NCBI GenBank assembly: GCA_016124585.1
Contig: WGNL01000009.1
Span: 1 to 64,000, forward strand
Source of the DNA: Bacteroidota bacterium
GTDB lineage: Bacteria > Bacteroidota > Bacteroidia > Chitinophagales > Saprospiraceae
Length of the DNA stretch: 64,000 bases
Reading direction: 5' to 3'
Both the position numbers and the translations under genes were made by a program. How positions within the stretch are numbered: the stretch's first letter is position 1; each line of letters opens with the position of its first letter. Positions 5,832 through 8,610 of the stretch are shown here, piece by piece. A model generated the notes under the pieces. It did no database searches and was not told the origin of the DNA. It worked only from the letters and a program-made list of their open reading frames with translations.

Positions 5832-5864
5832 AACGTCGGCGAGGTTTTGAACCTCGCCGACGTT
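5832..5864. repeat. Perfect hairpin repeat, copy 1
   Basis: Two perfect 15-base arms (5832-5846 and 5850-5864) around a TTG loop. A 29-base stretch (5833-5861) is identical to 62912-62940. Both copies lie a few dozen bases before a start codon, here 33 bases before glyS. There is no T tract, so it is not a plain terminator; it resembles a REP-type element. Confidence 0.8.
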
Positions 5865-5897
5865 CAAGCCCACAACAAGCATCAAGCATCAAGCACC

Positions 5898-7454
5898 ATG
5901 TCTCAACCAGTTGACTTATTCAAGAAACTCACCGCTCACTGCAAAGAGTACGGCTTTATTTACCAATCCTCAGAAATTTATGACGGCCTGAGTGCCGTGT
6001 ACGATTACGGGCCGTATGGTGTGCTGCTTAAAAACAATATCAAGGAATATTGGTGGAAAAGCATGGTGCAGATGCATGAGAATATCGTCGGTCTTGATGC
6101 TGCCATCTTCATGCACCCACTGACTTGGAAAGCTTCTGGCCACGTGGATGCATTCAACGACCCGCTCGTTGACAACAAAGATAGCAAGCGCCGCTATCGG
6201 GCCGACCAGCTTATCGAAGGGGCCATTGAGAAATTCCAAGAAAAAGCCGAGAAGGAAGTAGAGAAGGCGAAGAAGCGTTTTGGCGATAGTTTCGATGAAA
6301 AACTCTACCGGGAAACCAATCCCCGGGTGGTGGAATACCTGAAAAAAGCCACCGATACCAACGACCGCATGAACGAGGCGCTGCGTAACGGTGACATGGC
6401 CGGACTCGGTGCGCTCATTGCGGAGCTGGAAATCGCTGACCCAGATACAGGCAGCCGCAACTGGACGGACGTGCGCATGTTCAACCTCATGTTCAACACG
6501 CAGCTTGGCAATATCGCTGGGGAGGAGGGCAAGCTCTACCTCCGCCCGGAGACTGCGCAGGGTATCTTCGTCAACTTCCTGAACGTGCAGAAGACCACCC
6601 GCCAGAAGCTACCTTTCGGCATTGCGCAGATAGGTAAGGCGTTCCGCAACGAAATCGTGGCACGGCAGTTCATCTTCCGGATGCGGGAGTTTGAGCAGAT
6701 GGAGATGCAGTTCTTCATCAAACCCGGAACCCAGCAGGAGTGGTACGATTACTGGAAACAGGCCCGCCTAAAATGGCACCTTGCCCTCGGCACCGATGCT
6801 GGCAAGCTCCGCTTCCACGACCACGAAAACCTCGCCCACTACGCCGATGCCGCTGTGGACATCCAGTTCGAGTTTCCGTTCGGCTTCCGTGAGTTGGAGG
6901 GCATCCACTCCCGCACCGATTTCGACCTGTCGGAGCACCAGAAGCTGTCCAACAAGAAACTACAATACTTCGACCCAGAGTCGAACGAGAACTACGTGCC
7001 GTATGTCATCGAAACTTCCATTGGCTGCGATCGCATGTTCCTCGCCATGATGGGCAATGCGCTCGTAGAAGAAGCCGTCGGTGAAAACTCAGACGGTGAG
7101 GGCAATACCCGTGACGTGTTGAAACTGCACCCAGCTTTGTCTCCACTCAAATTTGCCGTGATGCCGCTCAAGCGCAACGAGCAGGGCCTGGTGACAAAAG
7201 CCAAGCATATTTTCAACGAACTGAAATTGCACTTCCCCGGCCTCTACGACGATACGGGCAGTATCGGCAAGCTCTACCGCCGCCAAGATGCTGTGGGTAC
7301 GCCGTTCTGCATCACCGTTGATTTTGATACACTGGAAAATGATACGGTGACCATCCGGGAGCGGGATAGCATGGCGCAGCAGCGGGTGAGCATTTCAGCT
7401 TTGGAGGGGATGATTCGGAAGGAGGTGGATATGTCACGCCTGTTCAAGGGATGA
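5898..7454 (+). CDS. glyS: Glycyl-tRNA synthetase, alpha2 type
   Basis: 518 residues from the ATG at 5898 (MSQPVDLFKKLTAHCKEYG). A longer reading from TTG at 5847 would begin inside a palindrome and is rejected. It is the single-chain dimeric form: YDYGPYGVLLKNN near the N-terminus, class II motif 2 with FRNEIVARQFIFRMREFEQ, motif 3 with SIGCDRMF, and an anticodon-binding domain at the C-terminus (LKFAVMPLKR to the end). It charges tRNA-Gly with glycine in the cytoplasm. Short AAGCATC-like words lie directly before the start codon. A GC-rich hairpin follows the stop. Confidence 0.93.
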   Translation: MSQPVDLFKKLTAHCKEYGFIYQSSEIYDGLSAVYDYGPYGVLLKNNIKEYWWKSMVQMHENIVGLDAAIFMHPLTWKASGHVDAFNDPLVDNKDSKRRYRADQLIEGAIEKFQEKAEKEVEKAKKRFGDSFDEKLYRETNPRVVEYLKKATDTNDRMNEALRNGDMAGLGALIAELEIADPDTGSRNWTDVRMFNLMFNTQLGNIAGEEGKLYLRPETAQGIFVNFLNVQKTTRQKLPFGIAQIGKAFRNEIVARQFIFRMREFEQMEMQFFIKPGTQQEWYDYWKQARLKWHLALGTDAGKLRFHDHENLAHYADAAVDIQFEFPFGFRELEGIHSRTDFDLSEHQKLSNKKLQYFDPESNENYVPYVIETSIGCDRMFLAMMGNALVEEAVGENSDGEGNTRDVLKLHPALSPLKFAVMPLKRNEQGLVTKAKHIFNELKLHFPGLYDDTGSIGKLYRRQDAVGTPFCITVDFDTLENDTVTIRERDSMAQQRVSISALEGMIRKEVDMSRLFKG

Positions 7455-7512
7455 TGGATTAGGGATGAATGGGGGCTTCGTTTTTCCATTTACCTGATTC
7501 GACAACATAAGA

Positions 7513-7542
7513 GCGGGGCAGTGCCGGGTGGTGCTGCCCCGC
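7513..7542 (+). terminator. GC-rich hairpin after glyS
   Basis: GCGGGGCAG pairs with CTGCCCCGC around a 12-base loop, about 60 bases after the glyS stop. The following TTGTGTTT is only a weak T tract. Confidence 0.55.
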
Positions 7543-7580
7543 TTGTGTTTAGACGCTATTCGGTGGGCACATGCATTATG

Positions 7581-7811
7581 AAAATTAGAAATTGGTATGT
7601 GAGTTCCATCAATTAGTATGGTAGTTCCATTAAATGGGATTCAAGTTTTGTCAAGTGGGAAGTAAGTTCCATCAATTAGTATATCAGTTCCATTAGTAAG
7701 TGTGCAGGTTGTATCAATTGTGAGGGCAGTTCAATCAGTTGGTATTTGGGTTCCATTAGTTGGGATTCAAGTTTAATCAATTGGGATGCGAGTTCCATCG
7801 CTTGGCATTTA
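7581..7811. repeat. Phased 21-bp repeat array, ten units plus a decayed one
   Basis: Ten units start at 7602, 7623, 7644, 7665, 7686, 7707, 7728, 7749, 7770 and 7791, with no insertion or deletion between them; a degenerate unit precedes at 7581. The consensus is roughly AGTTCCATCAATTGGTATGNN; individual units differ at several positions. On the plus strand all frames are interrupted. On the minus strand the period equals seven codons and reads as leucine heptads with two in-frame TAA codons. 21 bp is also two turns of B-DNA. It lies between the glyS hairpin and the terminator of the next minus-strand gene, and accounts for most of the gene-free stretch 7455-7872. Confidence 0.9.
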
Positions 7812-7815
7812 TACA

Positions 7816-7850
7816 TAAAAAAGCCGCCCACAATGGCGAGCGACTTTTTC
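7816..7850 (-). terminator. Hairpin terminator of the minus-strand gene ending at 7873
   Basis: AAAAAAG-CCGCC pairs imperfectly with GGCGAGCGA-CTTTTTT. It lies 23 bases past the stop of the minus-strand gene, and minus-strand transcripts would end in a U run. It separates that gene from the 21-bp array. Confidence 0.6.
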
Positions 7851-7872
7851 ATACCTTATATGGATAGGCAAA

Positions 7873-8610
7873 TTATTTCTTCTTCTTTAGCCGGACGAAT
7901 TTGACGCCCTTCACCGCATTGTATTCCGGTGAACCGGTGCCGAAATCACTCTTGACCGATTTTTTGGAACCGAGCGCAACGTCCACGAGGCCCGTATCCG
8001 GGGCGAAAAAGATATTGTTTCGGGTGCTCAATGCGGTTTTATAGGCCACCAGCGGCGGCCCCACTTCGAGGTTCTTGGCCAGCATCGTGGCTAGGAGGGC
8101 ATCCAGCGCCGGGAGCTTGATGTCGTCCTTGCCCGGCAGGTAGGTCGGCTCCGCCCGCAGTATTTCGATGAAAAGGCCAAAATTCTCCGCTATCATCCCA
8201 TAGGATTGCTGACTGGTCGAGTAGGCGTCTTCCTCTGGTTCGCCCGGGGCGGGCGGTGGCGGCGGCGTGCTCGTGTCCACGCCCCTGATTTTGTCGGCCA
8301 AGGTCTTCGCCCTGTCTTTTGTGGGGCTTAGTGCATCCGAGTTTTGGAAGCCATTGAGGCAGCGGGTCACCAATTTGTCGAGCGGGGCGAAGACCGCCTC
8401 CCGCCCTGCTGCGACAAGGCTGTACGCCTGCTCCTTGTCCCCGACGGCCTTGTGGGCGAGGGCAGCGTTCGCTTTGAGGGTGATGAGTGCCGGGAGTTTC
8501 TGGGATGCCTTGCCGGGGTTGTAGTCCGTCCCCATCTCCGTGTACTTGGCGATGAGCTTGTCGAGGCTGGTGAGGTTGCTGCCGATCGTTGCTTCTGAGG
8601 TACTTGCCAT
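7873..8610 (-). CDS. Uncharacterised protein with a proline-rich linker
   Basis: 245 residues, start ATG at 8610, no signal peptide or membrane segment. Residues 1-110 are predicted helical (repeated KLPALITLKANAALAHKAVG-like segments). A linker of consecutive prolines (TPPPPPAPGEP) follows at about 115-125. A second helical half resembles the first in layout (KLPALDALLATMLAKN), hinting at an internal duplication. The end is strongly basic (KFVRLKKKK). I do not recognise a family. It is GC-rich like the housekeeping genes, unlike the AT-rich pair upstream. It is transcribed alone, with its own terminator, next to the 21-bp array. Confidence 0.75.
   Translation of the reverse strand: MASTSEATIGSNLTSLDKLIAKYTEMGTDYNPGKASQKLPALITLKANAALAHKAVGDKEQAYSLVAAGREAVFAPLDKLVTRCLNGFQNSDALSPTKDRAKTLADKIRGVDTSTPPPPPAPGEPEEDAYSTSQQSYGMIAENFGLFIEILRAEPTYLPGKDDIKLPALDALLATMLAKNLEVGPPLVAYKTALSTRNNIFFAPDTGLVDVALGSKKSVKSDFGTGSPEYNAVKGVKFVRLKKKK

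Follow-up and report, generated by a model that had tools for sequence, protein, structure and literature searches.

Why does a row of ten 21-bp units keep exact step while its units differ from one another, and does it belong to one of the genes beside it? The question is raised by a locus in the stretch of Bacteroidota DNA analysed here (64,000 nucleotides, hereafter the window), where the array lies between two convergent genes. The locus is laid out as follows.

5847–7454, + strand: glycyl-tRNA synthetase-like gene (glyS), with class II core and anticodon-binding domains; convergent neighbour
7513–7542, + strand: terminator-like hairpin after glyS, on the far side of the array; stem drawn by eye, with a computed inner stem of 5 pairs at 7526–7539
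7582–7602, no strand assigned: worn terminal unit, in the same register as the ten-unit array
7603–7812, no strand assigned: array of ten 21-bp units, consensus (+ strand) GTTCCATCAATTGGGATGCAA; higher-order period 63 bp
7821–7846, − strand: terminator-like hairpin with a T-run, between the companion gene and the array
7873–8610, − strand: companion gene of 'family 1', 245 amino acids, two tandem helical bundles in the model; the array is on its 3′ side

The name glyS is our own assignment, read from the domains of the product. Because terminator-like hairpins flank the array on both sides, its transcription in the window is doubtful.

The ten units start at 7603, 7624 and so on to 7792, the last ending at 7812, with no internal indel. 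The first-pass annotation had described ten 21-bp units without an indel, and this is confirmed by Tandem Repeats Finder (7590–7799, period 21, 10 copies, 61% matches, 0% indels), which also reports a second row, of period 63 and with 2% indels, that overlaps the first. The array was indeed at the place given for it, 7581–7811, starting at 7582 or 7603 with or without the worn unit, but an end at 7811 drops one base of the last unit. The autocorrelation at lags 21, 42 and 63 is 0.595, 0.593 and 0.696, respectively; the lag-21 value lies above the maximum of 0.417 among 1,000 dinucleotide shuffles (lags 5–70). Pairwise identity among the units averages 0.635 (range 0.38–0.90). Unit columns 1, 2, 3 and 7 are conserved in 10/10 units and columns 6, 9, 12, 14 and 16 in 9/10; for columns 15, 18, 19 and 20 the figure is 4–5/10. 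No other lag-21 cluster (at least 55% identity over 84 bases) occurs in the window. Automatic unit counts, used for the arrays below, run slightly high: this array has 12 units by count and 10 by eye.

Three genomes of the same genus with a common gene order, G000, G001 and G008, carry arrays at this site in strict 21-bp steps and with differing units. The window has 10 units, G001 has 14 and G008 about 8–11. On the glyS side of the G001 array, the first unit matches the window consensus at 18/21 positions and the two after it at 14 and 13; the remaining eleven, towards the gene, belong to a new type (9–13/21), and all units are in step. The glyS-site units of G008 differ again and show a 63-bp pattern; window-like units are present in that genome on another contig (contig 9), beside alaS. 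Comparison of unit number and substitutions between related genomes, which had been suggested as a check, thus shows that both vary while the step stays constant. In a search for the consensus itself in relatives, a two-unit pattern was found in 2/398 genomes, because the units drift.

The gene that travels with the array is the one at 7873–8610. At the glyS site the family-1 gene and the array co-occur in three genomes, and neither was found there in ten other genus members. The possibility that the array is instead a companion of glyS was ruled out. Thirteen genus members have a glyS match; the flank was examined in ten (1.4–2.7 kb each), and these ten, which have no family-1 gene at that flank, also have no 21-bp array there. 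Two of the ten flanks (L070 and L074) exceed the lag-21 threshold through 7-bp simple repeats alone. The glyS-like gene is outside the gene–array module.

The association extends across several Bacteroidota families and is well supported. A lag-21 array, defined as an 84-base stretch with at least 55% identity at that lag and lying no more than 600 bp 3′ of the stop codon, accompanies 76 of 88 distinct family-1 homologs (80/88 if lag 42 is also accepted). The 5′ side has one in 2/88, and each of the other lags (10–60, excluding 21 and 42) was found in at most 3/88. Among control genes in 800 kb of sampled genome sequence, a lag-21 array was found 3′ of 2/499 and 5′ of 6/506. To be counted among the 88, a homolog had to match at E up to 1e-10 with a first matched stretch of at least 150 residues, and each distinct protein end was entered once; for the family of G673 the set comprises up to 30 loci plus 40 further stretches down the match list, fragments skipped. 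The window's own gene is counted among them, and the tally independent of the family's discovery is 75/87. Four open frames stand outside the 88, namely two halves of a split gene, L098 (lag-21 score 0.83, 3′ of the later half), L054 (0.63) and L055 (0.40). The array-bearing homologs form 29 clusters at 30% protein difference. The median number of units in their arrays is about 12 (5–20, a slight overcount), and the median distance from stop codon to array is 71 bases; the next gene past the array is convergent in 46/76, in the same direction in 27/76 and was not found in 3/76.

The array accompanies most compact family-1 members examined, not all. In a Flavobacteriaceae-like set of 28 homologs, some of them weak matches, a 3′ array within 900 bp is present in only 5/28. 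Labels such as Flavobacteriaceae-like are our own assignment. Five members of this set pass on the 5′ side: in L262, L271 and L278, lag or inspection by eye shows simple 7-bp repeats, L269 has a true 21-bp array, and that of L273 is short and weak. One genome, G1168, has eleven family-1 copies (L261, L266, L268, L271, L274, L276, L278, L280, L282, L284 and L285). A 3′ array is lacking in all nine of its copies whose frames exceed 300 codons; L280 has one, and L266 falls just under the threshold (0.548). Family-1 homologs occur in 6/14 genus genomes, most of those loci with a 21-bp array, in 9/395 genomes of a phylum sample, in 72/296 of the family of G673 and in 7/249 of the family of G479. 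Among the relatives are Saprospiraceae bacterium UBA6168, Saprospiraceae bacterium maxbin.051, Bacteroidota bacterium BWSM_97 and Pedobacter mendelii CCM 8939, in the last of which the array lies 3′ of the gene with a lag-21 score of 0.58.

Across these arrays the step is held far more tightly than the letters. The core arrays contain 3,751 differences from the array consensus in 15,842 bases. No phase change is present in 57/76 arrays, and jumps in the other 19 are mostly near an array end, in a count of indels that is biased since the arrays were detected by lag 21. When phase was left free, a scan gave 836 unit matches in phase and 47 out of it, many of these 47 standing alone and far off. 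In L132, L128 and probably L118, several units are shifted by one base. The earlier claim that spacing is fixed despite substitutions thus stands as far as the 21-bp step is retained, in the three genomes and beside 76/88 homologs, but has to admit a few one-base slips. The same step with different letters in many relatives suggests that the step itself matters.

What the units share is a degenerate motif of 5.4 bits (2.16±0.05 in controls). It is stronger in a Weeksellaceae-like set (6.47 bits versus 2.23 in the control) and barely above the control in the other 13 arrays (5.8 bits versus 4.62, maximum 4.85), where it is flipped in 6/13. Divergence of the array correlates with divergence of the gene overall (Mantel r 0.77, p 0.001) and within the Weeksellaceae-like set (r 0.753), weakly in the 13 arrays outside it (r 0.162, p 0.074), although a correlation between gene and array is expected from linkage alone. 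Paralogs in one genome have arrays no closer than matched pairs do (0.611 for same-genome pairs versus 0.612). The arrays track the lineage of their own gene, not the genome. We take the array and the gene at 7873–8610 to form a single inherited module, in which units are replaced over time and the step is kept.

The family-1 protein of the window is modelled as 245 residues in two tandem all-helical bundles (mean pLDDT 88.6). Searches of Pfam and NCBIfam assigned it to no family, and a PDB fold search with the model gave no clear match. Among 18 family-1 members there are scattered weak Pfam and NCBIfam matches, each entry in one or two members (best E about 4e-4); they are inconsistent between members and include no Rep family. 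PADLOC defence models matched 0/18 at E up to 0.01. The member L131, as a single query, was matched by none of 72,556 plasmid records and none of 50,697 phage records, and the family-1 profile confirmed no relative in viral contigs. Net charge is modestly positive (median +4, range −6 to +14).

Arrays of this kind are not confined to family 1. Further examples are as follows.

G000 contig 43, array L203:15131–15450, gene L203:15697–16839: family-2 example, array 5′ of the gene
G000 contig 23, array L191:4040–4250, gene L191:4362–4976: family 3, array 5′ of the gene
G008 contig 9, L049:6721–7066: orphan array with 42-bp higher-order units close to those of the window, between an aldolase-like gene and alaS
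G1043, L176:3389–3556: short orphan array of 21-bp units, between esterase-like and alcohol-dehydrogenase-like genes

Family 2 consists of helical proteins whose C-terminal domain is carboxypeptidase-regulatory-like; it has 12 matches in G000 and 9 in G158, and no detectable homology to family 1 (hhalign probability 0.4%). Of its 21 matches, 20 were scored, L218 being left out at a contig edge; they include L207, the member through whose array the family was found. A lag-21 or lag-42 array lies within 700 bp 5′ of 16/20 genes (14/20 by lag 21 alone) and 3′ of none. Two family-2 genes of G158 depart from the 21-bp step: the 5′ array of L214 has a step of 22/44 bp and that of L222 a step of 43 bp, the latter also passing lag 21 and counted in the 16. 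These steps fit about two helical turns, not seven codons. The family-2 profile matches 229/296 genomes across the phylum, but the spread of the family cannot be read from this figure since the matches listed outside G000 are nearly all to the C-terminal domain in large proteins. Family 3, represented by L191, was found in G000 alone among 150 genomes searched. A 400-kb sample of G000 contained two true arrays, both 5′ of genes that are not of family 1. The 800-kb sample has seven lag-21 clusters, three of which look like true arrays; L178 and L196 are weak and A+T-rich, and the other two, L192 and L194, fall within long open frames whose translations look like coiled coil. No family-1 or family-2 gene was seen within 13 kb of the orphan array on G008 contig 9, and no family-1 gene in the G1043 stretch with the L176 array. 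A 42-bp periodic array also occurs at a contig edge in G006 (contig 460, L013:1–191), a genome in which the family-1 gene was not found.

How might such a module work? Our tentative explanation, which we consider plausible while stopping somewhat short of calling it probable, is that the array is iteron-like, with its sites spaced by two DNA turns, and is predicted to be bound by the linked protein. The array would act as DNA, with putative binding sites that recur at intervals of two helical turns and face the same side of the helix. We infer that the two-bundle family-1 protein, or an oligomer of it, binds there, with a site sequence particular to each lineage. The likely effect would be local: a nucleoprotein patch that represses or times its own gene, or anchors that stretch of the chromosome. 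The site sequence may drift with the protein, but a step off two turns would break side-by-side packing of the protomers. Some evidence pulls the other way. The family-1 model is without a clear PDB match and has only modest positive charge, which would count against the predicted binding; Flavobacteriaceae-like homologs mostly have no 3′ array; and arrays exist without the gene (G008 contig 9 and G1043).

Four other explanations have to be weighed against binding by the linked protein. Similar arrays beside the unrelated family 2 point also to a shared factor, some nucleoid protein or replication protein sensing the 21-bp step, with the linked helical proteins acting on that complex and not on DNA. 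This is the strongest rival because two families without detectable homology carry arrays of the same step, and arrays without either gene also fit it; against it, arrays diverge with their own gene without being homogenised inside a genome, and have only the degenerate motif in common, so that we regard it as rather unlikely, if a serious contender. Passive satellite DNA, made by slippage and recombination beside the gene and keeping its step as whole units are copied, would account for the many Flavobacteriaceae-like homologs without an array. The 42- and 63-bp higher-order periods and the replacement of units from one end in G001 show that copying does take place. What copying leaves unexplained is the same step beside 76/88 homologs despite very different units, together with the rarity of arrays at control genes and the existence of diverged arrays that are still in step; a satellite is unlikely on these grounds. 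That the 21-bp step encodes a heptad-repeat, coiled-coil peptide is extremely improbable. Twenty-one bases are seven codons, and genuine coding lag-21 coiled coils exist in the same genome (L192 and L194), but all six frames of the window array contain stops and open frames through the arrays are at control level (gene-sense strand 25% versus 26.6% in column-permuted controls; opposite strand 21.1% versus 19.9%). The 22/44- and 43-bp steps beside two family-2 genes also speak against codons. Of the two readings of 21 bp that the first-pass annotation had offered, two helical turns is the better fit and seven codons falls away. Its further suggestion of DNA bending found no clear support from phased A-tracts, in a crude test without a shuffled control (power share at the 10.5-bp harmonic 0.049 for A/T, 0.128 for AA/TT and 0.051 for AA/TT/AT, against 0.1 if flat).

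The array could alternatively be active as RNA: the protein would regulate itself by binding a repeated 3′ tail. Its position, mostly 3′ of the gene, would suit such a tail, as would the near-constant gene-sense orientation of the motif in the Weeksellaceae-like set (3/63 flipped). Terminator-like hairpins precede the array in 31/76 cases, which argues against a transcribed tail; they lie inside it in 3 and after it in 5, and none was found in 37, which leaves room for one. Some units can fold: a unit dyad exceeds its own 95% control in 8/76 arrays (about 4 expected by chance), mostly in one subfamily, and RNA folding gives z below −2 on the gene strand in 14/76, the stretch of L131 reaching −4.74 with its terminator hairpin included. 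The opposite strands do so in 10/76 in the same test, however, the mean z over the 76 arrays is −0.6, and the window array folds no better than its shuffles (z 0.65). A hairpin as a general property of the arrays, considered as a candidate, is unsupported by these dyads and by folding near controls. Rfam gave two matches in window positions 7300–8000 (E 0.39 and 0.52), both far under gathering scores. Finally, family-2 arrays sit 5′ of their gene. DNA is favoured over RNA because of the hairpins ahead of the array, folding near controls and the arrays placed 5′ of a gene, and we judge an RNA tail to be decidedly unlikely. As a separate observation, the members of one subfamily (L135, L137, L138 and L139) have a consensus 21-bp unit with the inverted repeat TTACAT ... 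ATGTAA.

Returning to binding of the array as DNA, the wider reading is that Bacteroidota have a kind of module in which unrelated helical proteins are paired with private rows of sites and a spacing code, not a sequence code, is held fixed, with several such modules of differing units in one Saprospiraceae-like genome. That this is so, and has not been described before, is a possibility we hold with some reserve. A search of paper listings found no title that looked related to such 21-bp arrays, but it lay mostly outside subscription journals and so does not show absence from print. The usual explanations for bacterial repeat arrays are CRISPR, control sites of plasmids, and slippage. In the present case, family-1 proteins across several Bacteroidota families are tied to non-coding arrays whose units drift while the two-turn step stays. 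The many natural pairs of protein and array are material for learning how a protein is matched to spacing, and for two protein families left unnamed, or named by the C-terminal domain only, in the libraries searched, they offer a specific function to be tested.

Set beside known systems, the locus resembles several and coincides with none. CRISPR arrays are also regular rows of repeats, but the window units run head to tail and spacers are absent, so the earlier conclusion that this is not CRISPR holds. Bacterial minisatellites and VNTRs consist of tandem units that change in copy number, as window-type arrays do, but here the step is held across strong divergence and is tied to one gene family. 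The centromere-like partition repeats sopC and parC are rows of direct repeats beside the gene for their binding protein. The window array likewise adjoins a gene, whose family-1 product is predicted to bind it, but no partition ATPase was seen among the nearest genes, which encode the glyS-like protein, the companion and proteins of 177 and 244 amino acids, the last two without a Pfam match. Iteron arrays of plasmid replication origins, such as that of R6K, are tandem direct repeats about two helical turns apart that adjoin a protein gene; each system has its own repeat sequence, and the class is defined by a gene for a winged-helix Rep initiator and by its plasmid setting. The linked protein here is instead a helical-bundle model without a Rep match, the array is mostly 3′ of the gene, and the family-1 member L131 was not found in plasmid or phage records. 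Iterons would nonetheless be the nearest working likeness, apart from their defining Rep gene and plasmid setting: the window array, too, is a row of direct repeats about two helical turns apart, in a 21-bp step, beside a protein gene.
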